From: Candidatus Fermentibacterota bacterium
GTDB taxonomy: Bacteria > JAFGKV01
Length of the DNA stretch: 20,766 bases
Assembly: GCA_030620115.1 (NCBI GenBank)
Contig: JAUXFG010000063.1
Location: 1 to 20,766 of the forward strand
Direction: 5' to 3'
Shown: one piece after another, positions 5,361 to 20,634 of the stretch
Numbering within the stretch: the stretch's first letter is position 1
Layout: the number at the start of each line of letters is the position of its first letter
Translations under genes and position numbers: made by a program
The notes under the pieces: model-generated
Databases searched by the model: none
Seen by the model: only the letters and a program-made list of their open reading frames with translations
What the model was told of the DNA's origin: nothing

Positions 5361-5810
5361 CTCGCAAGCTCCTTTGCTGTGCGTCTGTTCCTTCATACGA
5401 CAGATCAATATAATGCTCCCCAAAGGTGAGTTGCGGGCTAAATCCCTGCTTCTTTTGCAACGACCTCTGATGCTCTTTGGGGATCAGCGCACCATTGCAC
5501 CTTCAACAAAGCCATCGATGGCACGGCATATCGGGCCTCACCACGATCAAAGATCAAAGATTTGTCCCGAAGCCCTCCTTTCCCAAGCGACCAAAGCCCC
5601 AAGCCTGATCCCGGATCTGACTACAGAGCAAAAAGAAAGGGCGCTTGTCGGACTCCTTGCTACACAAGGCGAAACCCGGCTCATAATCCACCAAATTGTT
5701 GCGCCACGGCACGTCCCCCCCATGCCCATGGCCACGGCAATTCGTTGAGAATTCTACGCTTTGTGAGCGGTGCATTCACACGAGACCAGTAGTGGATGCA
5801 AAGAAATCAG
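5361..5810. other. Spacer without a convincing gene
   Basis: This is the start-to-start side of a divergent pair (secreted protein on minus, RNA-binding protein on plus). I see only short ORFs without ribosome-binding sites. One of 73 codons (minus, 5554-5775) has a protein-like look (PWRNNLVDYEPGFALCSKE) but no start signal; it may be a remnant. A 7-bp tandem repeat (GATCAAA twice, 5545-5558) is present. No tRNA or other RNA gene was recognised. The promoter of the minus-strand gene should lie here; a TATATT about 50 nt upstream of its start lacks a good -35 box. Confidence 0.5.
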
Positions 5811-5982: not shown

Positions 5983-6345
5983 ATGGGAAAGAAGCTCTTT
6001 GTAGGCAATCTGGCGAATGAGACAACAGAAGACGAGCTTCAGGCTCTCTTCGAAGCGGTGGGACCGGTAAGCAATTGCGAGTTTGTAATAGACAAGTATT
6101 CTGGCGAATTTCGCGGATTCGCGTTTGTTGAGATGACCACCGATGAAGACGCCGAGAGGGCGGTTCAAGAATGCAATGGGAAGGAATTCGGAGGCCGGAA
6201 TTTGGTGGTCAACGAGGCTCGGCCGCGTGTGGAACGTGCGCCTACTACCGGTTTCGGAGGACGGGGGCAGAAGAAACGCCGTTCTGGGAAAGGCAGCCGC
6301 CGCGGCCTACGCAGCGCCAAGCGTGCTCGAAAAGCTTCCTGGTAA
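5983..6345 (+). CDS. RNA-binding protein with RRM domain and basic tail
   Basis: The 120-residue protein opens with a single RNA recognition motif (residues ~3-80). RNP2 is LFVGNL (5-10) and RNP1 is RGFAFVEM (44-51), with the aromatic residues Phe6, Phe46 and Phe48 that stack on RNA bases. After the domain comes a Gly/Lys/Arg-rich tail (from ~82, e.g. FGGRGQKKRR, SGKGSRRGLR), which likely adds non-specific RNA affinity. The length and plan match bacterial RRM proteins of the cyanobacterial Rbp type, many of which are cold-induced RNA chaperones. The tail is more Lys/Arg-rich than the usual RGG tail. It has its own candidate promoter and a long leader. The gene ends 42 nt before the exonuclease III gene, which may be co-transcribed. 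Confidence 0.92.
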   Translation: MGKKLFVGNLANETTEDELQALFEAVGPVSNCEFVIDKYSGEFRGFAFVEMTTDEDAERAVQECNGKEFGGRNLVVNEARPRVERAPTTGFGGRGQKKRRSGKGSRRGLRSAKRARKASW

Positions 6346-7928: not shown

Positions 7929-9029
7929 TTGAATTTCGAATCAATCCCTTTCGGTGATCTGCCCAAAGCACTGCTGCATGAGCATCTCGATGGAGGCCTG
8001 AGGCCGTCTACTGTCATCGAGTTGGCCGGAGAGATCGGCTATGCGTTGCCTACCGACGATCCCATACAACTTGCCGCATGGTTTCAGCGCGGTGCTGCTC
8101 GGAAGAGCCTTCCGCTTTATCTGGAAGGCTTTGCCCATACATGTGCCCTCATGCAAACGAGAGACAACCTCTACCGAGTGGCCTACGAGATGATGGAGGA
8201 CATGCGTGACGATAATGTGATGTATATCGAAACGCGTTTTGCGCCTATGTTTCATCTTGAGGGAGGGCTGAAGCCACAGGAGGTGGTGGAGGCTGTCTTG
8301 GCTGGTCTTGAGGCGGGGAGGAGGGATTTCGGTGTTGAGTTTGGCCTGATTCTATGCTCCCTGAGACATATGAAGACTTCACGCGCAATGGCCGAGCTGG
8401 CCGTGGGATACCGCGATAATGGCGTAGTGGGTTTCGATCTGGCAGGAGAGGAAAGCGGCTATCCGCCCAAGGATCACCTGCGCGCGTTTCATTACATCCA
8501 GCGGGAGAATTTCAACATCACCATCCACGCGGGGGAGGGTTTCGGCAAGGACTCCATTTGGCAGGCTATCCAGTTCTGTGGAGCACACCGCATCGGTCAT
8601 GGCGTACGGCTCATCGAAGACATGACCATAGAAGAGGGCAGGGTGGTTGCCATGGGAAGGCTCGCGCAGTATGTGCTCGACAAGCGCATTCCCATGGAAA
8701 TTTGTCTTTCGAGCAATATCCACACCGGCACCATCCCTGAGATGAAGCTCCATCCTTTTCCCATATTCCACCTGTTCAACTTCCGGACCACACTGAACAC
8801 GGATAACAGGCTTATGTCGGGCACCACGCTCACCAAGGAATTTCAGATCGCCCATGATCTATTCGGACTCACGTTCGATGACTTCGAGAAGTTAACGATC
8901 AATGCCATGAAGAGCGCCTTCATTCCCTACCGGGATAGGTTGCGGGTGATCTATGAAGTGCTGAAGCCGGGGTATGCCAGAATACGGAGGAAATGGATGG
9001 ATGCACGCCGAGGGTTTGTCCATCAATGA
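7929..9029 (+). CDS. add: Adenosine deaminase
   Basis: The enzyme hydrolyses adenosine to inosine in purine salvage and is cytoplasmic and zinc-dependent. Metal and catalytic motifs are all visible: HEH in LLHEHLDGGLRP (His17, His19), HAGEGFG (His200, Glu203), RIGHG (His224) and NTDN (Asp292). The NTDNRLMSGTTLTKE stretch is typical of true adenosine deaminases. I chose the TTG at 7929 because GGAGG lies 4 nt upstream and the protein then begins MNFESIPFGDLPKALLHEHL, like the family; an in-frame ATG at 7878 would add 17 atypical residues and has no good ribosome-binding site. At 366 aa the length is normal. It is first in a tight operon, and its stop overlaps the next start by 4 nt. Confidence 0.92.
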   Translation: MNFESIPFGDLPKALLHEHLDGGLRPSTVIELAGEIGYALPTDDPIQLAAWFQRGAARKSLPLYLEGFAHTCALMQTRDNLYRVAYEMMEDMRDDNVMYIETRFAPMFHLEGGLKPQEVVEAVLAGLEAGRRDFGVEFGLILCSLRHMKTSRAMAELAVGYRDNGVVGFDLAGEESGYPPKDHLRAFHYIQRENFNITIHAGEGFGKDSIWQAIQFCGAHRIGHGVRLIEDMTIEEGRVVAMGRLAQYVLDKRIPMEICLSSNIHTGTIPEMKLHPFPIFHLFNFRTTLNTDNRLMSGTTLTKEFQIAHDLFGLTFDDFEKLTINAMKSAFIPYRDRLRVIYEVLKPGYARIRRKWMDARRGFVHQ

Positions 9030-10402
9030 GTTGGGACTTTCCTGGCATGATGCTCGGGATCAGCGGGGCCAGAGGGGTGGTCGGTCAGGGGCTTACCCCC
9101 GAGGTGGCTGCCCGGCTCTCGGCTGCATTTGGTTCGCTCACAGAAAGAGGCGACATGCTCCTGGCGCGTGATTCGCGACCCACGGGGGAAGCGCTTCTCC
9201 AGGCGGCGGCGGCCGGGCTCTCCTCTGTGGGCTGTACACCCAGGATGGCAGGATTGCTTACCGCTCCAGGCGCTCAGGTGGCGGTAGAGGAGATGGGACT
9301 CGCGGGTGGGATCATGGTGACCGCGAGCCACAATCCCCCGGAGTGGAATGGACTGAAGTTCATTGGGCCTGATGGTGCGTTCATTTCGGAGGACAAGGCA
9401 AGGCGTCTCTATGAGGAGGCGCGTGGCGACAGCCTCTCCCGCGCTCCTTGGGACCAATGGGCGTCTCCAGTAGCGACGCCACAGGGAACCAGGCTGCATA
9501 TGGAGAGAATCGTACAATCACCCCTGGTTGACGCCGTAGCGGTTCGAAAGAAGATGTTTCGCGTGGTTGTGGACTGCAATCACGGTGCTTTTGGCCCGCT
9601 CATGAGACAACTGGGGGCGTATCTGGATCTGGATCTCGTGCTCTTGGGGGAAGAAGCCACAGGGCGCTTTGCACATGGTGCGGAGCCCTGCCAGGAGAAT
9701 CTCCATGGTCTGGGCAAAGCGGTTCGGGAAGCGTCCGCCCATCTTGGCGCGGCGGTAGATCCCGACGGCGATCGTCTTGTTTTCTGCACACGGGACGGCT
9801 TCGTGCTGCCCGAAGAGGCGACATTGCCCATAGTTGCAATGGCCGTGCTTGCACAGACTCCCGGATCAATTGTCACCAACCTCTCCACCAGCAGCATGGT
9901 GGACTCGGTTGGTCGTATCTTCGGAATCGAGGTAAAAAGAACTCCCGTGGGGGAGGCTCATGTGGTGGCGCAGATGAAACTGGATGGCGCTGTTCTTGGA
10001 GGGGAGGGCAACGGTGGCGTGATTTTTCCTTCCATCCATTATGGCAGAGATGCCGCGGCAGGGCTGGCAGTCTTGCTGACCCACCTGGCCCGTGCCGATG
10101 CCACGCTGGAGGCTCTTTGGCAAGAACTTCCTTCGTACCATATGACCAAGCGCAAGATGAGCGCGGGAAGCATCGCCATGGATGAAGCGATCGCGAGCCT
10201 TCAGAAGTCTTTCCCCAAGGCGGACGTCGATCTCCGCGACGGCGTCAAGATTTCCACGGGGGATGGATGGGTGCACCTGCGGCCGTCAAATACCGAACCG
10301 GTAATGCGGATCGTTGCTGAAGCCAAAAGCGAAGAACTGGTGGAGGAGCTCATCCGGACTGTCAAGGATGTGGTCTTCGGCCAGGGCGTGAAGAAGGGGT
10401 AG
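9026..10402 (+). CDS. glmM: Phosphohexomutase, probably phosphoglucosamine mutase
   Basis: This is an alpha-D-phosphohexomutase with all four family loops in order: the active-site serine loop TASHNPPEWNG (Ser101), the metal-binding DPDGDR (245-250), the sugar-binding loop GGEGNGG (325-331) and the phosphate-binding RPSNTEP (419-425). The family converts hexose-6-P to hexose-1-P. The GISGARG N-terminus and GEGNGG sugar loop do not settle the substrate, and phosphomannomutase or phosphoglucomutase activity is possible. The immediate neighbour glmS argues for glucosamine-6-P to glucosamine-1-P. I start it at ATG 9026, which overlaps the add stop (ATGA), not at the in-frame ATG 8993, because coupling by 4-nt overlap is the rule here. 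Length 458 aa is normal; glmS follows after 4 nt. Confidence 0.9.
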   Translation: MSWDFPGMMLGISGARGVVGQGLTPEVAARLSAAFGSLTERGDMLLARDSRPTGEALLQAAAAGLSSVGCTPRMAGLLTAPGAQVAVEEMGLAGGIMVTASHNPPEWNGLKFIGPDGAFISEDKARRLYEEARGDSLSRAPWDQWASPVATPQGTRLHMERIVQSPLVDAVAVRKKMFRVVVDCNHGAFGPLMRQLGAYLDLDLVLLGEEATGRFAHGAEPCQENLHGLGKAVREASAHLGAAVDPDGDRLVFCTRDGFVLPEEATLPIVAMAVLAQTPGSIVTNLSTSSMVDSVGRIFGIEVKRTPVGEAHVVAQMKLDGAVLGGEGNGGVIFPSIHYGRDAAAGLAVLLTHLARADATLEALWQELPSYHMTKRKMSAGSIAMDEAIASLQKSFPKADVDLRDGVKISTGDGWVHLRPSNTEPVMRIVAEAKSEELVEELIRTVKDVVFGQGVKKG

Positions 10403-10406
10403 GAGC

Positions 10407-12230
10407 ATGTGTGGAATTGTGGGATATGTGGGATCAAAGCCTGTCCTGCCAATCCTGCTCGCAGGATTGAATCGGCTCGAGTACCGAGGATATGATTCGG
10501 CCGGTATTGCGGTGTTGGAGGAGGATCAACTTGCCGTCTACAAGGAGGTGGGAAAGCTCAGCGAGCTCCGGGAGATGCTCTCCATGGTCGAGCTCACGGG
10601 AACCATCGGCATAGGTCATACGAGGTGGGCAACCCACGGAGAACCCAGTAGGATCAACGCCCATCCCCATGTGGGTGGCAATGGCTCCTTGGCCATTGTG
10701 CACAACGGAATCGTTGAGAACTACGAACAGATCAAACGCGATCTCATCGAACGAGGACATGTTTTCCAGTCCGATACGGACACCGAGGTTCTCGCCCACC
10801 TCATCGAGGAGTACCTCGAGGATGATCTCGCCAAGGCGGTGGCCCAGGCGGTGAGCCGAATACAAGGCGCCTATGGAATCTGTGTGATTTCGTCTCGCGA
10901 TCCCGGCAAGATTGTGGCTGCGAGAAATGGCAGTCCCTTGGTGGTGGGCATCGGAGAGGGAGAGCATTTCATCGCCAGTGATGTCCCTGCATTGGCGCCG
11001 TATACCCAAAGAGTCGTTTTTCTTGAAGACGGCGACATAGTGCTCATCACACCTACTGAGATACAGACCGTGTCGGGGCGGCCCGAGCTGGCCAAGCTGG
11101 TCCATCAGGTGGAATGGGAGCCCCAACAGGCAGAGAAGGGGAAATTTCCCCATTTCATGCTCAAGGAGATATTCGAAGAGCCTGATACAGTATCCCGGGT
11201 GATCAAAGGACGTTTGATCGAGTCAGAGGGCGATGCCCATCTCGGCGGTCTCAACATGAGCCCCAAAGAGCTCCTCAACGTTGACAGGATCGTCATCCTT
11301 GCCTGTGGAACTTCATGGCACGCGGGGCTTATTGGCGAGTATATGCTCGAGGAGATGGCCCGGATTCCTGTGGAAGTGGAGTATGCCTCCGAATTCCGAT
11401 ACCGGAATCCCGTCATGAGACCAGGCGATCTGGTGATCGCCGTCAGCCAGTCGGGGGAGACAAAAGACACCGTTGCCGCGGTCCTTGAGGCGAAGCGTCG
11501 AGGCTGTCGCGTTCTTGGCATCGTGAATGCGGTGGGCACGAGTCTGCCCCGGCTCACCGATGGTGGTGTGTACCTTCGGGCGGGGCCGGAGATCGGTGTT
11601 GCCTCCACCAAGGCATTTGTCGGCACGCTGGCGGTGTTTTTTATGCTCGCCTTGCATATGGGTCGTCAACGGAACACCTCCAATGCGCAGGGCCGTCGAA
11701 TGGTGAGAGCATTGCGGCAGATCCCGGATCAGATGCAACAGGTTCTCGAGAAAGAAGGCGAGATAGAGGCTCTTGCCCAGTTTTTTGCCCGCGCCGGGAA
11801 TGCGCTGTACCTGGGTCGCGGTGTCAGCTTCCCTCTGGCACTAGAGGGCGCTCTGAAGCTGAAGGAGATCAGCTATATCCATGCCGAGGGATATCCCGCG
11901 GCAGAGATGAAGCACGGCCCCATTGCGTTGATCGATGAGAATATGCCGGTGGTTGTTGTTGCCCCTCAGGATTCCGTGTACGAAAAGGTGGTGAGCAATA
12001 TCGAGGAGATCAAGGCCCGTCATGGGAAGGTCATTGCCGTAGCCACTGAGGGTGATGCCGAAATCGCCAACAGGGCCGATCATGTAATCTACATACCGGA
12101 GACCCTGGAGGCTCTCACCCCCCTCCTCTCAGTGGTGCCCTTGCAACTGCTCGCGTATCATATCGCGGTTCGGCGTGGATGTAGTGTTGACCAGCCCAAG
12201 AATCTCGCCAAGAGCGTGACTGTGGAATGA
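10407..12230 (+). CDS. glmS: Glutamine-fructose-6-phosphate aminotransferase (isomerizing)
   Basis: The enzyme makes glucosamine-6-phosphate from fructose-6-P and glutamine, the first committed step to UDP-GlcNAc. The N-terminal glutaminase domain starts with the nucleophile Cys2 (MCGIVGYVG) and has HTRWATHG (71-78) and VHNGIVENY (98-106). The two sugar-isomerase (SIS) domains show CGTSWHAG (300-307), SQSGET (347-352) and the C-terminal KNLAKSVTVE tail. At 607 aa it is full length. The start ATG follows the mutase stop by 4 nt; AAGGGG about 7 nt upstream is the likely ribosome-binding site. No room exists for a glmS ribozyme in that gap, so control must lie at the operon promoter or in the protein. 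The stop overlaps the udk start (ATGA). Confidence 0.98.
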   Translation: MCGIVGYVGSKPVLPILLAGLNRLEYRGYDSAGIAVLEEDQLAVYKEVGKLSELREMLSMVELTGTIGIGHTRWATHGEPSRINAHPHVGGNGSLAIVHNGIVENYEQIKRDLIERGHVFQSDTDTEVLAHLIEEYLEDDLAKAVAQAVSRIQGAYGICVISSRDPGKIVAARNGSPLVVGIGEGEHFIASDVPALAPYTQRVVFLEDGDIVLITPTEIQTVSGRPELAKLVHQVEWEPQQAEKGKFPHFMLKEIFEEPDTVSRVIKGRLIESEGDAHLGGLNMSPKELLNVDRIVILACGTSWHAGLIGEYMLEEMARIPVEVEYASEFRYRNPVMRPGDLVIAVSQSGETKDTVAAVLEAKRRGCRVLGIVNAVGTSLPRLTDGGVYLRAGPEIGVASTKAFVGTLAVFFMLALHMGRQRNTSNAQGRRMVRALRQIPDQMQQVLEKEGEIEALAQFFARAGNALYLGRGVSFPLALEGALKLKEISYIHAEGYPAAEMKHGPIALIDENMPVVVVAPQDSVYEKVVSNIEEIKARHGKVIAVATEGDAEIANRADHVIYIPETLEALTPLLSVVPLQLLAYHIAVRRGCSVDQPKNLAKSVTVE

Positions 12231-12904
12231 CTTCCACGAAGCATATTCGACCGGCAGTGATAGGCATTGCCGGGGGAACCGGATCCGGCAAGACCACGGT
12301 GGCCGAGTTCATTGCAGAACGCTTCCCTGAGGGAACGGTGGCGTTGATAGGGCATGACAGTTACTATCATGATCATAGCCACCTCTCGCCCGAAGAACGG
12401 GCGCTCATCAACTATGATCATCCTGACGCCTTTGATTCCGATCTGCTGGTCAGGCAGCTCAAGGAACTCATGGATAGGCGTGCAGTTGAGCGGCCTGTGT
12501 ACGACTATGTTACACACTCTCGACAGCCCCGCGGCATACTGACTCGTCCGGCACAGATCATCCTCATTGAGGGCATCCTCGTTCTCGAGAACAAGCAGCT
12601 TCGGGAACTGATGGATATCAAGCTCTTCATTGATACAGATAATGATGAGCGATTCATCCGCCGTATGCTGCGAGATACTCATCAGCGAGGGCGTGATCTC
12701 GACTCGGTAGTCACGCAGTACATGAACACGGTCAAGCCGATGCATCTCGACTTTGTTGAACCATCCAAACGATATGCCGATGTGATCATACCGGGGGGCG
12801 CCCATAACTCCGTGGCAATGGATCTGGTGATCACGAAGATTCGCGCCCTGCTTCAGGACATGGCTGAGAGGGATGGCGAAGCTGCCGTTCCAAGTCCCAG
12901 CTGA
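12227..12904 (+). CDS. udk: Uridine kinase
   Basis: This P-loop kinase phosphorylates uridine (and cytidine) to the monophosphate in pyrimidine salvage. The Walker A motif GGTGSGKTT is at residues 16-24. The DSYYHD segment, the NYDHPDAFD motif, the PVYDYVTHSR motif and the IEGILVLEN strand are all typical of Udk. The R-x(2)-R-D-x(3)-RGRD lid region is also present. At 225 aa it is full length and cytoplasmic. It starts inside the glmS stop (4-nt overlap), so its expression is tied to amino-sugar synthesis; UMP made here could be converted to the UTP needed for UDP-GlcNAc. The last ~12 residues are a variable tail. It is the last gene of the operon, and I see no clear terminator after it. Confidence 0.95.
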   Translation: MTSTKHIRPAVIGIAGGTGSGKTTVAEFIAERFPEGTVALIGHDSYYHDHSHLSPEERALINYDHPDAFDSDLLVRQLKELMDRRAVERPVYDYVTHSRQPRGILTRPAQIILIEGILVLENKQLRELMDIKLFIDTDNDERFIRRMLRDTHQRGRDLDSVVTQYMNTVKPMHLDFVEPSKRYADVIIPGGAHNSVAMDLVITKIRALLQDMAERDGEAAVPSPS

Positions 12905-13167: not shown

Positions 13168-14685
13168 ATGCCGTATTCAACTGGACACAGCAGACCAAAA
13201 TGCGTTTCGTCTTGGAGGTTGTTTCTCGGTTTTCTGTTGCTCTATGTAGCTTTTGCCGGCGGTCATCTCTACACCGCGGACGATTGGAGTCGCTTCTATG
13301 CCGCCCGTGGTTTCTTGACGGAGCTGCGTCCCGTTGTTCCCGACAAACCACACGTATACGGCGTTTCGGGGCGAGACGGCCTGCGGGTCAGCCATTTTTC
13401 CCCTGGTCTCTCCTTGGTGAGCCTACCCCTTCTGTTTTGTGGTCACCTGGCTGGGACGATCACGCCGCAGCACCAAGAGCTGATTGAGCGGATAGGCGTC
13501 TCATTCTTGAACCAGATCGTTATGGCAGGGCTTCTGGTGCTTCTCTTCCGGCTCATGCGGCGAGCAGGCGTGGCTCCAAAACACAGCTTACTTCTGACGC
13601 TGTTGGCGGCAGTGGGCTCTCTGGCGTTCCCTTACGCGAAGCATTTCTGGGCGGAACCACTGCAGACAGCGCTGCTCTTGGGAGCACTTCTCACTCTGGA
13701 GCGTTTGGATGGCGGCTTTGGAAAACCCTTTCGCTATGCGTTTTTCTCCGCTCACCTCTCTTTGGCCTTTGCAGTGAAATACGAGAGCGTCATCCCCATC
13801 GCCATCCTGGGCACCTACATGATGATCAGGCATTTCCCTCGCGGAGCAAACCGCACGATAGCCTTTGCCGTTCCATGGCTTTTCGTGGCCGTGCTCTGTG
13901 GCGGCTACAATTTATGGCGGTTTGGATCCATACTGGATTTCGGATACCATGGGCTCATCGTATCGTCGACAACAGCCGGCACTGAGTTCTCTCTCGCCGC
14001 AGCCGTACCGGCGCCGGATCGAGTGGTGCGGCGTCTTGCTTTGCTGCTTTTCTCACCTGGTCAGGGCCTCTGCGTTTTTGTGCCCACCACAGTGCTTGCC
14101 ATCATCTATTCCCTCAAGGGCCGTGCTCCGACGATACTGCGCCTTAGCTATGGATGTGCGTTCGGGCTTCTTGGGTTCTATGCACTCCTTGACAGGTCAT
14201 CAACATGGTGTTGGGGGCCGCGATATCTTTTCCCTTCCATGATCCTTTGGTGGCCGGCGCTGGGTTTTATCCGCGGGAGAGCTGCCAAGACAATTCTTCC
14301 TGTCCTCGGGACAGTAGCTCTCTGTTTTGCGCTCTTGGGAGTGCTCATCAACTTCCACGACGGCATCGAGGAGATACGGGCGGAACGGGGATTCACCGGC
14401 TGGGAGTGGGTTCAAGGCGTACAGAATGATCCGGCGCTCAGTCCGCTGTGGTGGCATGCGAAGCTCCTTCCATTGTACATTGGCAGGACATTTCATCCGG
14501 TGGAGACCAAGGAAGAACACGGGGAAAGCCCGGTGTTCTGGCGGCATCGACGCCTGGATATCCTCTGGTTGGCACTCTGGGTCGGAGGCTGGTCTCCTGC
14601 GATTCTTCTTGTCCCCGTGGTGGCTATTGGGATGGCCTTAAGGCAGTTGAGATTGGCCTGGCATGAAGCGGAGCAGCTCACATGA
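13168..14685 (+). CDS. Multi-pass membrane protein, GT-C glycosyltransferase-like
   Basis: The 505-residue integral membrane protein has about ten hydrophobic segments from residue ~16 to ~490. Right after the first segment comes YTADDWSRFYAARGFL with Asp38-Asp39, the place where GT-C enzymes (PMT/ArnT/arabinosyltransferase type) keep the acidic catalytic motif in the first extracytoplasmic loop. These enzymes transfer sugars from polyprenyl-phosphate donors outside the cytoplasmic membrane. A His/Ser/Pro segment (VSHFSPGLSL) follows in the same loop. The extracytoplasmic C-terminal part is short. The start ATG 13168 has no clear ribosome-binding site, but no better in-frame start exists before the first helix. 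The stop overlaps the next gene (ATGA). The sugar and acceptor are unknown. Confidence 0.75.
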   Translation: MPYSTGHSRPKCVSSWRLFLGFLLLYVAFAGGHLYTADDWSRFYAARGFLTELRPVVPDKPHVYGVSGRDGLRVSHFSPGLSLVSLPLLFCGHLAGTITPQHQELIERIGVSFLNQIVMAGLLVLLFRLMRRAGVAPKHSLLLTLLAAVGSLAFPYAKHFWAEPLQTALLLGALLTLERLDGGFGKPFRYAFFSAHLSLAFAVKYESVIPIAILGTYMMIRHFPRGANRTIAFAVPWLFVAVLCGGYNLWRFGSILDFGYHGLIVSSTTAGTEFSLAAAVPAPDRVVRRLALLLFSPGQGLCVFVPTTVLAIIYSLKGRAPTILRLSYGCAFGLLGFYALLDRSSTWCWGPRYLFPSMILWWPALGFIRGRAAKTILPVLGTVALCFALLGVLINFHDGIEEIRAERGFTGWEWVQGVQNDPALSPLWWHAKLLPLYIGRTFHPVETKEEHGESPVFWRHRRLDILWLALWVGGWSPAILLVPVVAIGMALRQLRLAWHEAEQLT

Positions 14686-16217
14686 GGCGTAGGACAAGTC
14701 AACGAACCTTCCTCGTGCTCATTATCATCTCATGTATTGGTCTGTGTATTCACGCGATGCTCTTCCACCGATACACGGTGGATGATGCGTATATCAGCTT
14801 TCGCTATGCGCGCCATCTTGCCGAGGGACACGGACTTGTCTTCAACACCGGTGAACGCGTTGAAGGATATACCAACTTCCTCTGGACTCTGGTCCATTCG
14901 CTTTGCATTGGGGCGGGATTTCGCCCCGAGCTATTCGCCAAAGCGCTTGCATTGGTGTCCGCAGTGGGCACTCTTTTTTTGATCCTTTTGCTCGGTAATC
15001 TCTGGGGTCATGGGAGGTCGGCGGTGGCCACCTCGGGGGCTTTCCTATGGGTGGTTTCCGGGGCGGTAGCCGTGGCCGCCATGGCGGGCCTGGAGACTCA
15101 TTTGTTCACTTTACTGGTCACTCTGGGAGTCATACTCTACTCATGGCCCATTCAATCCGACAGGGTATTGGGTGGTTCCCTGGTAGCATTCAGCGTGGCG
15201 ACGCTGGTGAGACCCGAAGGGTTGTTTTTTCTCGCCGTGACTCTTGGTCACTTCTACACATATCGCTCAACCAGGCGACATGTGCTCTGGCCCCTGCTTC
15301 TGCCGGCGCTCGTTCTGATCCCGCATTTCGCCTGGAAGACGCTCTACTACGGTTCGCCATTTCCTAATACCCTTACTGCGAAAACCGGCGGAGGGTTCCA
15401 CCAGTTGGAGAGGGGATTCGGCTATGTCAAAGGCTTCGTCAACGAGTACGGCAAACCGGCCCTCTACCTGCTGGCAGCCATTCCTTTTATTCGGATGCCG
15501 CTTGGAAGACAGAGATCCTACGCGTTTGCGCTGATCGCGAGCTATGTTGCTTATGTCATGCTCGCCGGAGGGGACTGGATTCCCCACTATCGTTTTCTCA
15601 TTCCCATCATGCCCCTGATCTACGTTTCCGTGCAGGACGGTCTGGTCTTCCTGTGGCGAAATCTCCCAGGATACGGCCGTGGGAAGCGCCGGTGGCCTGT
15701 CGTAGTGTTCTCGTTGTTCCTGGCCGTCATACTCTTTGATATCGCCAACCAGTCCTACTATCTCCGGCTGCATACGGAGATGTGGGCCGACGGGTATAGT
15801 TCTGCGCATGCACGTGTGGGGCATTGGCTGAGAGCCAATGCCCAGGAGGATGATACTGTTGCTCTCATGGATGTCGGACTCATTGGCTACCTCTCGAAGA
15901 TCAGGATCCTGGACATCACTGGTTTGACCGATCCCCACATTGCCGCAGCCCCCGGAGGTTTCCTCAAGAAAGAGTATCCCCTTGATTACCTTTTCCAGCG
16001 CGATCCGACGTATGTGGTACTCGTGAGCGCAGCCGACTATCCGGATCAACCCTTTGGCAGTAGTTTCCCCATCGACCGGGCGATTTTCCAAGACCCACGT
16101 TTTCTTGAACAGTACGAGTTTCTTTTCAGCCATGATGCCTACGTGACGCGAACCCCCCACATATCCGGATACTACCTCTTGGTGTTCCAAAAAAAGGCTC
16201 ATCGTCATCATGCCTGA
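14682..16217 (+). CDS. GT-C family membrane glycosyltransferase
   Basis: The 511-residue protein begins with a membrane segment (10-28), then YTVDDAYISFRYARHLAEGH with Asp34-Asp35, followed by GLVFNTGERVEGYTNFLWT. This DDAY...RYA...GLVFN.GERVEGYTNFLW block is characteristic of bacterial GT-C transferases such as the AftB-type arabinofuranosyltransferases, which use polyprenyl-phosphate sugars on the outer face of the cytoplasmic membrane. About ten further membrane segments end near residue 360. The ~140-residue soluble tail contains DVGLIGYLSKIRILDITGLTD, also typical of the group. The start is coupled by ATGA overlap to the preceding membrane protein, so the two probably act in one pathway. 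The exact sugar is unknown. Confidence 0.85.
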   Translation: MRRRTSQRTFLVLIIISCIGLCIHAMLFHRYTVDDAYISFRYARHLAEGHGLVFNTGERVEGYTNFLWTLVHSLCIGAGFRPELFAKALALVSAVGTLFLILLLGNLWGHGRSAVATSGAFLWVVSGAVAVAAMAGLETHLFTLLVTLGVILYSWPIQSDRVLGGSLVAFSVATLVRPEGLFFLAVTLGHFYTYRSTRRHVLWPLLLPALVLIPHFAWKTLYYGSPFPNTLTAKTGGGFHQLERGFGYVKGFVNEYGKPALYLLAAIPFIRMPLGRQRSYAFALIASYVAYVMLAGGDWIPHYRFLIPIMPLIYVSVQDGLVFLWRNLPGYGRGKRRWPVVVFSLFLAVILFDIANQSYYLRLHTEMWADGYSSAHARVGHWLRANAQEDDTVALMDVGLIGYLSKIRILDITGLTDPHIAAAPGGFLKKEYPLDYLFQRDPTYVVLVSAADYPDQPFGSSFPIDRAIFQDPRFLEQYEFLFSHDAYVTRTPHISGYYLLVFQKKAHRHHA

Positions 16218-16292: not shown

Positions 16293-17735
16293 ATGGCATC
16301 TGATCATCTTCACGGCGATCTCTTCCACCGGTCTGTGCGGGGGGCGCAGATCATCATGGTCGTCTCCGCCTTGTCGTCTCTGGTACAACTTGTGGCTCAA
16401 GTGGCACTCATGCGGTTGCTTGATCCAGAGGTTTTTGGGGCTGCCGCGTACATCGCCATCATTGTGGGCCTTATGCGGCTGCTCACCCTGCAGTCATCCA
16501 AGATCATCATCCAGAGGAGAGGCGATATCGATCGTCTCGTCGATAGCGCATTCGGTGCCGAGCTCCTGGTGTCCGCATGTGCGTTTATGGTATGCGTGGT
16601 TTTCGCGGGCTCCCTCATGCGAGGGTCAGGAGAATGGTACTTCCAGCGCGAGCTTCAGGTGGCCGCATTGGGTGTACTCGCCGGGCCGCTCACCCTGCCA
16701 AAAGTACTCCTGGAGAAGCGCCTCGAATTCGCCAAGGCGAATCTGGTGAACTTAGGGGGGATCTTGGTTGCCATTGCAGTGCAGATAGGGCTTGCACTGG
16801 CGGGGATGGGGCTTTGGGCACTGATCATTGGAACCCTCGCAGGGCAACTCACGAGCAGTGTCATGGCCTGGTTATTTGCGCCGTACAGGCCCAGGCCACG
16901 GTTCGAGCCGAGTGTGGTGAAAGAGATCTCGGTCTTCGGTCTTCCGTTGGCACTGAGCGCGGCCCTGGCCTATTTCTACTGGAACATCGATGATCTTTTG
17001 GTGAAGTGGATGATGGGCACCGCCACCCTCGGTTTCTATTCCAAAGCATTCAGACTGCCTCACTTCGGGTTCAGGGCTCAGGCGAGTCTGAGTACATTAG
17101 TATTTCCCGCGTTTTCTTCCATCACTGAGAAAGATCAGCTCCGCAGGGCGTATGGGCACACCTTGAAGTATTCCGCGTATCTCCTGTTGCTCCCGGTGGT
17201 GATGGTGCTTGCTCATGGGAAAGAGATTGTCTTCATCTTGTTTGGAGAGAAGTGGCTCCCCATCTCGGTTCCGTTCAAAATATTCACGCTCCTGGTCGGG
17301 GTACGCGGCATTTTCAATCACTGGGTCGATCTCTACGTATCCCGCGGCAAGACCAGATTGGTGACGTGGCTTGCCGTGGCGAACTCGGCGCTCATCGTTG
17401 GTTTGGGCTACTTCGGAATCCGCATGGCGGGCATTGTGGGCATGTCTGTCGCCGTATTCGTGACGGTCTGTGCGACCATCCTTGTTGCGGTGATCTGGGT
17501 GCACAGGGAGTACCCGGTGAATTTTTTCAGGCTTCTTGGTCCGTCGGTGCTTTCCGGGATTGCCGCCTACTGCGTTGCCTTGATCATGAAGCCGTTGCTC
17601 ACCTATGGGCTCATCGGCCTTAGTGGATCTTTGGCGGTGATGGCGCTTGTATATGTCATGGGGCATCTTCTCTTGGACGGTGCTGCGGTGCTGGCTCTAT
17701 GGCGCGCGGCGTGGGCGGGGTTCGGCCGGTCATGA
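16293..17735 (+). CDS. Wzx/MATE-type polysaccharide flippase
   Basis: The 480-residue protein has 12 or more hydrophobic segments and the profile of the oligosaccharide flippases of the MOP superfamily. N-terminal RGAQIIMVVSALSSLVQLV leads into LLDPEVFGAAAYIAIIVGL, the family's L-x-P-E-x-F/Y-G signature, and the middle has FYSKAFRLPHFGFRA and VFPAFSSI. Such proteins move lipid-linked glycan units from the inner to the outer face of the cytoplasmic membrane. ATG 16293 is the only start after the in-frame stop at 16248, and there is no clear ribosome-binding site; translation may depend on reinitiation after the 76-nt gap from the GT-C gene. The stop overlaps the radical SAM start by 4 nt. Confidence 0.88.
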   Translation: MASDHLHGDLFHRSVRGAQIIMVVSALSSLVQLVAQVALMRLLDPEVFGAAAYIAIIVGLMRLLTLQSSKIIIQRRGDIDRLVDSAFGAELLVSACAFMVCVVFAGSLMRGSGEWYFQRELQVAALGVLAGPLTLPKVLLEKRLEFAKANLVNLGGILVAIAVQIGLALAGMGLWALIIGTLAGQLTSSVMAWLFAPYRPRPRFEPSVVKEISVFGLPLALSAALAYFYWNIDDLLVKWMMGTATLGFYSKAFRLPHFGFRAQASLSTLVFPAFSSITEKDQLRRAYGHTLKYSAYLLLLPVVMVLAHGKEIVFILFGEKWLPISVPFKIFTLLVGVRGIFNHWVDLYVSRGKTRLVTWLAVANSALIVGLGYFGIRMAGIVGMSVAVFVTVCATILVAVIWVHREYPVNFFRLLGPSVLSGIAAYCVALIMKPLLTYGLIGLSGSLAVMALVYVMGHLLLDGAAVLALWRAAWAGFGRS

Positions 17736-18763
17736 TACGGGATGGCCTCTGGTCCGGCGCGCTTCATCTCGCCTGCGGTTTGTCGGAGCGGTTGCCTGCA
17801 GCCGGAAGAAGCCGCACGATCCTGGAGGCTGTTCGTAAATCGCTCTCCATTGTTCCTGAGCTTCCGACATGGGTGCAGATCGAGACCACGAACCGCTGTA
17901 ACTTCTCTTGCGAAATGTGCCCGAGGAATCTTCTCCAGTTGCCCGATGCTGACATGGATCGTGACACCTTCGAGTTTGTCCTGTCCCGGCTGGGTCTGCA
18001 GCCTGGAAGTCTCATCACACTATTCGGCCTCGGCGAGCCCCTCATCCATCCCGACATATTCTGGATGGTTCGGCAGGTGAGGGAGCGCGGCCTTGTTGCG
18101 GGGTTCACTACGAATGGTGTGCTTATGACCAAGAAGAAACAGAAAAGGATCCTTGACTCAGGGTTGGAGTATCTCCGCATTTCCATTGACGATGACGGCT
18201 TGGGTGATGCAGCCGACAAGCTTCATTCGGCCAGCATCAAAGTGATGGAACGGAGCGAAGAGCTGGTTCGACTCAGAGGAGATGCTCAAGAGCCGGAAAT
18301 TCTCTGGAATGTGGTTGCCTCGACATACTCGGCGCCATCGATACCTGGGCTCATTACCAAGGCGGCGGCCGTGGGGATTGACGGCGTGAACATCATCAAT
18401 CTCGTGCCCAGGTTTTCGAATCTGGCGCCGCTCCCCGAGGACAGAAGGGTCGCCCTGTTTCAAGAATGGCACACTATGGGGCAAAAAAAGGGTGTCCGGA
18501 TCCAGAGCACATTTGGCGATAGATTTGGTTTGGCGCGATTCTTCTACGGCGGGGGACACGAATGCCCGCAGCTTCTGAACTACGCGTATGTGACCATGGA
18601 CGGGAAGATTTCCCCCTGCTGTCACCTGCCCAGGGTGATCTTTGGGGATCTTCGAGAGCAGACGCTCGACAAGATATGGCACGGCGAGAAGTTTCGAAGG
18701 TTCCGGAAGCAGTATCGTACCATGCCCACGTGCAAAGACTGCAGGCTGCTGCTCTGGAAATGA
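17732..18763 (+). CDS. Radical SAM protein with SPASM-like C-terminal cluster
   Basis: The 343-residue cytoplasmic protein binds a [4Fe-4S] cluster through Cys56, Cys60 and Cys63 (RCNFSCEMC, the CxxxCxxC motif) for S-adenosylmethionine cleavage. FGLGEPLIHPDI is the GGEP-type SAM-binding motif. A cysteine-rich C-terminus (Cys278, Cys296-Cys297, Cys334 and Cys337, with ISPCCHLPR and CKDC) fits a SPASM/twitch auxiliary cluster. Such proteins modify peptides or act as sugar or alcohol dehydrogenases; no precursor peptide gene is visible here. I chose ATG 17732 (ATGA overlap with the flippase) over the in-frame ATG 17699. The stop overlaps the next membrane protein in the same way, so it is coupled on both sides to glycan-assembly genes. 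The substrate may be a sugar, lipid carrier or peptide; unknown. Confidence 0.88.
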   Translation: MIRDGLWSGALHLACGLSERLPAAGRSRTILEAVRKSLSIVPELPTWVQIETTNRCNFSCEMCPRNLLQLPDADMDRDTFEFVLSRLGLQPGSLITLFGLGEPLIHPDIFWMVRQVRERGLVAGFTTNGVLMTKKKQKRILDSGLEYLRISIDDDGLGDAADKLHSASIKVMERSEELVRLRGDAQEPEILWNVVASTYSAPSIPGLITKAAAVGIDGVNIINLVPRFSNLAPLPEDRRVALFQEWHTMGQKKGVRIQSTFGDRFGLARFFYGGGHECPQLLNYAYVTMDGKISPCCHLPRVIFGDLREQTLDKIWHGEKFRRFRKQYRTMPTCKDCRLLLWK

Positions 18764-20634
18764 GCCGTTTCCGCGCATTCGCACTCCTCTGGCTCGCGCT
18801 CGTCTCCAGCCTCTTCGGTCTGATTCTTCTCGCTGACGCGCTCTCCATGCCTAGGGGGATGGGGGGAGAGGCATGTCTTCTGCCTGGTGGTTTGTCTGGA
18901 TCGGGCGACGCCGGGCATATGCTGGTGGCAGCACTGGGGCTCCTTCACTTCTTGGTGATTCCCGGATGGCTTCTTCTTGGGCTTGCAGAACTCCCAAGAG
19001 GCGCAAGGTTGGCGTTGTCGTGCGGTGTGTGGATTGCGGTCTGGATAGGTCTACAGACCTTGTTTCATCTCATAGGCGTGGAGTTGAACAGGTGGACGGT
19101 TGGGGTGGCCATCGCGGTGGTGGACATGCTGCTTCTGGCCATGATCTGGCGGCGGAAGAAATCCTTCGAATCCTTGTCTCCCCGAGCAGAGGACGTTACC
19201 GCATTGGTCACCGGCCTGTTGTTCATTCTCCTCTTGGGCACGGGGAAGCTCGTGCACCAGAATCTCTCCGGCGATGGCGTGGAGGCCTACAGCTTTGGCG
19301 CCAGTCTGCTGCGGGGACCGCTGCCGACTTGGGATCTCGAGAATGGCACGTGGGGATTCTACCCATCCTTTTTCAGCTTTGCATACCCATTGCAGCTTTC
19401 GATGTTGTTCATTGGTCCATGTGAAGCCGCCGCACGGCTTCCGATCTTTGTGTTTGGGCTTTGTCTTGCGAGTCTCCTTGTCAGTATCGCGCGCTCGACC
19501 TCGGGGCGGCTTGCGGCTGTTCTGGGCACTCTGCTGCTGGTGACAACCTCTGGATGGAACTACAGCTACGATCCGTATTTCGCCGATCTTGCTGAGCCCA
19601 CATGCACTGACCTCTTTTTTGCGCTTTGTTTTTTGGGAGCAGTATGGGGGTGGGAGAATGGCAGGCGTTGGGTGTTTTTTGTCTTTGGATTCCTGGCTGC
19701 ATGCGCTCAGCCGGCCGGTGCACCCTTTCTGATCCTTCTTCTCGGCCTCGTCTTCGTGCTTGACCCGGAGCATAGGCGAAGCACAATTCTGTCTCTCATG
19801 GCATTTCTCGTCTTTCTCGGAGCCATGGCTCTTCTTGCCTCTTGGCTCAATCCGCTCGCACCGAACAAATTCTCGGGCATGGTGTTTTTGACGTACCATA
19901 CCAGGGAGCTTCTTACCCATATGGGGATCCGGCAGCTTGCGGCCCAAGTATGGGCGCTTCTCGTCCAATCGGGAGGTGCTCCGGTTCTATTTGCCGCATG
20001 CCTTTTTCGAATGCCGAAGAGCGGGATTCGGCGAGCGGTTCTCCTGACGCTCGTGCTCTATGCAGCAGCGGTTCTTTTGTCGCCAAGGAGGCATCCACAC
20101 TACCTCACCCCGGTGGTGGCCATGGGGTTCTATGTGCTGCCCAGGCCCCTCCCACGTCGGATGGCCATGGTTTGGTTGATCGTCATGGCGTTTTTGCTCG
20201 TGCTGGTTTTCCCTCGGCCAATCACCGAGCCTGATCAGCGCACAAGAGAGTTCGGGGCCGCTACCGTCATGGTCTTCCCCACGGAGCGGGAGGCGGTGGA
20301 CAATGCAGATCTCCTCTACAGCGTGCTCACCATCCCTCCCTGGCGTGACGAGGCCCACTGGGGTCCCGGGAAACATGCATGGGTGCTGTACGGCCGGAGA
20401 TTTTCGAGCCTGCCCAATGAGCCTCCGGAAGGGACTCATCTGCTCTTTTCTTCCGACCCTGTTGCCTGGTCCGGATTCAGCCTGGTAACCGACAATGGAA
20501 CCAGCTTTCTCTATGAGCGACCTCCCGGCTGGCTCCAAGAACAGGGAAAGACCGGCCCCTGCACCACGTGCTGGGCCCCCGCCCTGAAGATTCCCCACGC
20601 CCTATGGGACCCCCTCTCCCGTTGGCGCAGCTAG
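18760..20634 (+). CDS. Large multi-pass membrane protein, possible GT-C glycosyltransferase
   Basis: The start is ATG 18760, overlapping the radical SAM stop (ATGA), not the in-frame ATG 18562. The 624-residue protein begins with a membrane anchor (7-27). About 12 further hydrophobic segments run to residue ~500, and a ~110-residue soluble tail follows. An acidic motif in NLSGDGVEAYSFG (Asp172, Glu175) sits in an outer loop after a membrane segment, as in GT-C enzymes, but it lies further from the N-terminus than usual because about four helices come first. YDPYFADLAEPTCTDLFFA also resembles GT-C/DUF2029-type membrane proteins. A role in glycan transfer, ligation or polymerisation is inferred from context. 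The extreme C-terminus (CTTCWAPALKIP) has a CxxC pair. Confidence 0.7.
   Translation: MSRFRAFALLWLALVSSLFGLILLADALSMPRGMGGEACLLPGGLSGSGDAGHMLVAALGLLHFLVIPGWLLLGLAELPRGARLALSCGVWIAVWIGLQTLFHLIGVELNRWTVGVAIAVVDMLLLAMIWRRKKSFESLSPRAEDVTALVTGLLFILLLGTGKLVHQNLSGDGVEAYSFGASLLRGPLPTWDLENGTWGFYPSFFSFAYPLQLSMLFIGPCEAAARLPIFVFGLCLASLLVSIARSTSGRLAAVLGTLLLVTTSGWNYSYDPYFADLAEPTCTDLFFALCFLGAVWGWENGRRWVFFVFGFLAACAQPAGAPFLILLLGLVFVLDPEHRRSTILSLMAFLVFLGAMALLASWLNPLAPNKFSGMVFLTYHTRELLTHMGIRQLAAQVWALLVQSGGAPVLFAACLFRMPKSGIRRAVLLTLVLYAAAVLLSPRRHPHYLTPVVAMGFYVLPRPLPRRMAMVWLIVMAFLLVLVFPRPITEPDQRTREFGAATVMVFPTEREAVDNADLLYSVLTIPPWRDEAHWGPGKHAWVLYGRRFSSLPNEPPEGTHLLFSSDPVAWSGFSLVTDNGTSFLYERPPGWLQEQGKTGPCTTCWAPALKIPHALWDPLSRWRS

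Follow-up and report, generated by a model that had tools for sequence, protein, structure and literature searches.

A twitch-type radical SAM gene in a conserved flippase operon of Candidatus Fermentibacterota suggests a radical step in the synthesis of an exported glycan

In Candidatus Fermentibacterota, a radical SAM gene lies between a polysaccharide flippase gene and a gene for a large membrane protein, overlapping both, and this order is preserved in all three genomes sampled from the phylum. By our estimate, there is an about even chance that the encoded protein is a radical oxidoreductase that works in the cytosol and modifies a sugar, linked to a nucleotide or a lipid, ahead of its export. 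Twitch/SPASM radical SAM proteins are encoded by some 165,000 genes, and the superfamily is mostly uncharacterised (PMC9012708). Members that have been studied act mostly on peptides, cofactors or antibiotics. Searches of the open-access literature for radical SAM in connection with flippases, nucleotide sugars, O-antigen or surface polysaccharide turned up no account of a system of this kind. A radical enzyme tied by gene overlaps into the glycan operon of a rare lineage suggests an uncharacterised radical step in the synthesis of an unusual surface sugar, and the idea of an undescribed pathway is plausible. Moreover, its conserved place among flippase and membrane protein genes, together with comparable surroundings of relatives in unrelated genomes, defines a set of partners with which one can ask whether bacteria use radical chemistry in building their surface sugars.

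Organization and conservation of the operon

The window, that is, the whole 20,766-nt stretch of DNA analysed here, is one complete contig (C158) of a 4.1 Mb assembly in 296 contigs. All evidence on the operon comes from three draft genomes (MAGs) of the phylum: that of the window, G001 and G002. The features relevant to this study are the following.

8993..10402, + strand: GlmM-like phosphohexomutase; conserved upstream neighbour
10407..12230, + strand: GlmS-like glucosamine-6-phosphate synthase; conserved upstream neighbour
12227..12904, + strand: uridine kinase family protein; conserved upstream neighbour
13168..14685, + strand: membrane protein weakly related to LA_3751/LA_3752 putative glycosyltransferases; match below cut-off
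14682..16217, + strand: GT-C membrane glycosyltransferase homologue, AftB-related (PDB 9dlf, E 2.9e-14)
16293..17735, + strand: MOP-superfamily polysaccharide flippase (Polysacc_synt_3); its stop overlaps the radical SAM start by ATGA
17732..18763, + strand: radical SAM protein, 343 aa; CX3CX2C and a predicted twitch-type auxiliary-cluster tail
18760..20634, + strand: polytopic membrane protein, 624 aa, with a soluble C-terminal part; possibly of GT-C-like topology
17732..17735, + strand: ATGA overlap of flippase and radical SAM genes; conserved in 3/3 genomes
18760..18763, + strand: ATGA overlap of radical SAM and membrane protein genes; a 10-nt overlap in G001 and G002

In G001, the phosphohexomutase, GlmS, uridine kinase, two GT-C-like proteins, flippase, radical SAM protein and membrane protein are encoded in the same order, with per-gene identities of 41–73%. 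The G002 contig begins at the first GT-C-like gene and is identical in order from there on. Since the flippase, radical SAM and membrane protein genes follow the two GT-C-like genes in both genomes despite different outer surroundings on the three contigs, their order is not due to chance, nor is it unique to the window's genome, as the preliminary description had allowed it might be. The radical SAM gene is under purifying selection between G001 and G002 (dN 0.21, dS 1.77, dN/dS near 0.12). When short patterns from the most conserved peptides were searched for in some 85,000 species genomes, a method that may miss members of intermediate similarity, the only close homologues to come up were those of G001 and G002, on JAFGKV010000212 (‘Candidatus Fermentibacteria’) and JALOPK010000058 (‘Candidatus Eisenbacteria’), respectively. 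The radical SAM profile had no other match above 180 bits in 386 genomes.

Direct reading places 4-nt ATGA overlaps on both sides of the radical SAM gene, exactly as first described: at 17732–17735 the TGA stop of the flippase overlaps the radical SAM ATG, and at 18760–18763 the radical SAM TGA overlaps the ATG of the membrane protein. The former is kept in all three genomes. The latter junction is ATGA in the window and a 10-nt overlap (ATGGCGTTGA / GTGGCGCTGA) in G001 and G002, and both flanks of the gene overlap their neighbours throughout. It had been proposed that these overlaps fix the ratio of the three proteins. However, ATGA overlaps are routine in the window (also at 2047, 12227 and 14682) and thus indicate an operon rather than a fixed ratio; furthermore, the second one is not conserved.

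The linkage of the GlmM-like mutase, GlmS and uridine kinase genes (8993–12904) to the glycan genes is found in G001 too, hinting that the glycan of this operon uses glucosamine or UDP-GlcNAc. Each phylum genome has about seven flippases, and the operon is therefore one of several glycan loci. In a second conserved locus (G000:C184:16000-35834, with counterparts in relatives), a radical SAM/SPASM paralogue is found together with a membrane protein, two GT2-like proteins and long proteins resembling B12-binding radical SAM enzymes.

Flippase and membrane proteins

The flippase matches Polysacc_synt_3 at E 4.8e-50 (170.9 bits, gathering cut-off 23) and belongs to the MOP (Wzx-like) flippases. 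The protein encoded at 14682–16217 is a GT-C member by its match to the AftB structure 9dlf but, at 43.9 bits where the AftB equivalog family requires 1050, falls outside that family. Its upstream neighbour, at 13168–14685, shows the weak likeness to LA_3751/LA_3752 given above.

The protein encoded last, at 18760–20634, had been called GT-C-like. It has no Pfam or NCBIfam family and no PDB sequence match, and its clear orthologues are in the same phylum only. The model obtained from a three-sequence alignment is poor (pLDDT 41), with ArnT, ALG9 and PglB among the highest-probability fold matches at E of about 1–2. One PMT_2-like protein is hit by its family profile at E 2.3e-4; in profile comparisons, no significant match emerged to the flippase, to PMT_2 proteins or to either of the upstream GT-C-like families. 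Given these results a GT-C-like topology is at most suggested, and the protein is best described as a polytopic membrane protein, possibly a GT-C enzyme.

The operon resembles Wzx/TuaB-type glycan export clusters in that a flippase and glycosyltransferases share one operon. It differs from them in that the flippase is joined only by membrane-type glycosyltransferase genes and the radical SAM gene; the operon, as seen in the window, lacks a priming enzyme, a recognised polymerase and any glycosyltransferase of the cytosolic type.

Domains and cysteine pattern of the radical SAM protein

The protein is a member of the radical SAM superfamily (Radical_SAM PF04055, E 1.9e-8), with CX3CX2C at C56/C60/C63, and of the SPASM/twitch group through a C-terminal auxiliary-cluster domain (SPASM PF13186, E 7.3e-17). 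Its tail cysteines are C278-X17-C296-C297-X36-C334-X2-C337, with none beyond C337. A full SPASM domain, with two auxiliary clusters, has seven or more tail cysteines, and here there are five. The pattern instead corresponds to that of the BtrN-type twitch, namely, four cysteines in a C-X17-C ... CX2C layout and one predicted auxiliary cluster; the C-X17-C pairs with that of BtrN in the alignment, and the same tail recurs in most relatives. Judged by its sequence, the tail is thus a predicted one-cluster twitch (half-SPASM), so that the initial designation as a radical SAM/SPASM enzyme stands for the radical SAM and SPASM/twitch domains but not for a full SPASM.

The radical SAM gene of G002 lacks 31 residues, in frame, spanning the central auxiliary-cluster cysteines (JALOPK010000058, around 5460–5490; the YAYVTMDG..PCCHLP part of the twitch domain). 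This is either an assembly fault or a sign that the auxiliary cluster is dispensable there. An amphipathic N-terminal helix was considered as a membrane anchor and rejected, its maximal hydrophobic moment not exceeding that of shuffled sequences (p 0.06–0.17).

Genomic neighbourhoods of distant relatives

At large, the family is common: a seven-sequence profile finds relatives (E <1e-30) in 185 of 372 genomes, the distant ones at 25–35% identity. We counted up to two genes on either side of 39 relatives and compared them with a control of 121 proteins from 18 stretches, mostly of the same genomes. Group-1 and group-2 glycosyltransferases make up 18 of 137 neighbours against 7 of 121 in this small control (one-sided p 0.036), a modest enrichment. 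Methyltransferases number 10 against 3 and other radical SAM proteins 11 against 0. Pooling glycosyltransferases with methyltransferases gives p 0.004, a value to be discounted as picked post hoc, with counts that assume no protein in both families.

Of the 30 genomes in which flippases were searched for, four have a relative no more than 3 kb from one: G286 and G149 (of the same family), G047 and G219. In G286, from an unrelated lineage, the run (C266 1324–6439) comprises, in order, a flippase, a second radical SAM protein, a twitch radical SAM protein and a group-1 glycosyltransferase; the pairing at G149:C74 resembles it. In G047 (C113 2602–8474), a flippase is followed by two radical SAM/SPASM proteins, a GT2 and a sugar-type oxidoreductase (Gfo/Idh/MocA), and this run would serve well as a model for studying radical chemistry on sugars. 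The exact flippase–radical SAM–membrane protein order was not found outside the phylum in the neighbourhoods of the relatives. That order is therefore lineage-specific, whereas the association of flippase, radical SAM and glycosyltransferase genes is not, because such combinations occur elsewhere in other orders.

Proposed role and alternatives

We propose that the operon serves to build or complete a glycan for export, which could be a surface polysaccharide, a lipoglycan or the glycan of a glycoprotein. The radical SAM protein would be a cytosolic, oxygen-sensitive enzyme of the twitch type. Its C56/C60/C63 cluster would reductively cleave SAM to the 5'-deoxyadenosyl radical, which would abstract a hydrogen atom from the sugar ring, and the second electron would pass to the single auxiliary cluster (C278, C296 or C297, C334 and C337). 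The net outcome would be oxidation of a nucleotide- or polyprenyl-linked sugar, that is, dehydrogenation, or epimerisation through a ketone. The flippase would then carry the product across the membrane, and the GT-C enzymes would use it outside. We infer the substrate class, the oxidoreductase chemistry and the position of the step ahead of flipping. As an iron-sulfur enzyme the radical SAM protein must reside in the cytosol, whereas GT-C enzymes work on the outer side and the flippase links the two compartments; the simplest scheme therefore has the radical step precede flipping, with a sugar bound to a nucleotide or a lipid as its substrate. The AftB-like GT-C protein and the flippase in the same operon count in favour of a sugar. 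The glycan role suggested earlier is partly supported: relatives in other lineages recur beside flippases and glycosyltransferases, but the GT-C identity of the last protein is not borne out.

Ring oxidation or epimerisation appears the most likely chemistry because of the twitch tail and the similarity to BtrN, DesII and BlsE. Among solved structures, the family profile matches BtrN best (E 6.1e-25), with PqqE effectively tied; BtrN is a twitch dehydrogenase of 2-deoxy-scyllo-inosamine (PMC9012708). Like the protein studied here, BtrN has the CX3CX2C core and a one-cluster twitch tail of the same layout, but it is shorter by some 70–90 residues, belongs to an aminoglycoside pathway and is only about 20% identical in sequence.

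The nearest alternative keeps the same sugar class and changes the chemistry to deamination or decarboxylation of a nucleotide sugar; we regard it as unlikely. Its basis is the predicted structure (pLDDT 71), for which the top Foldseek matches are DesII and BlsE, enzymes of radical sugar chemistry that act on a deoxysugar nucleotide and cytosylglucuronate, respectively. However, both belong to antibiotic pathways, the matches have TM-scores of 0.56–0.58 at about 17% identity, and the BlsE NCBIfam model is absent among the best 25 matches of the protein. Moreover, VIA-align Z-scores of 19–21 for SuiB, TigE, SkfB, BlsE, DesII and PqqE are near ties, so that, for this model, fold matches fail to separate sugar enzymes from peptide maturases, and the BtrN-like four-ligand tail would suit a two-electron oxidation at least equally well. 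A more specific and still less probable version of the oxidation proposed above is that the enzyme might be a dehydrogenase or epimerase whose direct substrate is a polyprenyl-linked sugar, met at the inner membrane face prior to its transfer by the flippase, the product passing to the AftB-like GT-C enzymes. By analogy, it would be an anaerobic counterpart of DprE1. Oxidation of the DprE1 type acts on a lipid-linked pentose.

It is also improbable that the radical SAM gene is a passenger, co-transcribed with glycan genes and unrelated to them in role. Short overlaps alone are no proof of shared function, all the more as ATGA junctions are routine here, yet the order is kept across two genera while the outer surroundings changed, and the flippase or glycosyltransferase context recurs among relatives.

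Little probability attaches to a maturase of a ribosomal (RiPP-type) peptide with its precursor elsewhere. SPASM/twitch homology and the good alignment of the model with SuiB, SkfB and TigE speak for it. However, the protein reaches no curated maturase cut-off in NCBIfam and scores far under every one of them; its best match, TIGR04317, gives 138.6 bits over most of its length against a cut-off of 380. By these scores the protein belongs to no known peptide-maturase family; membership in such a clade, with a precursor gene just beyond the window, was one of two findings that the preliminary description had named as overturning its proposal. Furthermore, reviewed RiPP maturases are mostly described as SPASM enzymes (PMC9012708), whereas the tail here would be a twitch. 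As noted at the outset, no precursor gene is visible: neither the gaps of the operon nor, in G002, the region downstream holds a small ORF that is conserved, and the contigs of the window and G001 end just behind the operon. The missing precursor weakens the peptide reading, with the downstream region seen in G002 only.

Modification of a lipid carrier or other membrane lipid instead of a sugar, in the manner of HpnH or Tes, is about as improbable as a peptide substrate. The neighbours are the kinds of membrane protein that handle lipid-linked substrates and there are weak matches to the HpnH and Tes models, but these fall far under cut-off and the N-terminal extension is not significantly amphipathic.

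The least likely reading is maturation of a metalloenzyme such as a tungsten aldehyde oxidoreductase (AOR), the function of TIGR04317. Score and location, rather than gene content, tell against it. Although no other curated family scores higher, the protein attains under 40% of the TIGR04317 cut-off, and relatives found in other settings reach the same scores, so that TIGR04317 is only the nearest named family. AOR genes occur in all three genomes, none of which has a TIGR04317 member above cut-off, but they lie on other contigs and not beside the radical SAM gene. An attempt to rule out a tungsten-cofactor role by the absence of AOR had failed on their presence in 3/3 genomes.

Other observations

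Tungsten-type aldehyde ferredoxin oxidoreductase genes are found at G000:C278:5580-6644 and G000:C198:22775-24061. Elsewhere in the window, the protein encoded at 22–981 carries a C-terminal sorting domain for type IX secretion (Por_Secre_tail), and positions 5983–6345 encode a small bacterial RRM RNA-binding protein whose tail is basic and rich in Arg, Lys and Gly.
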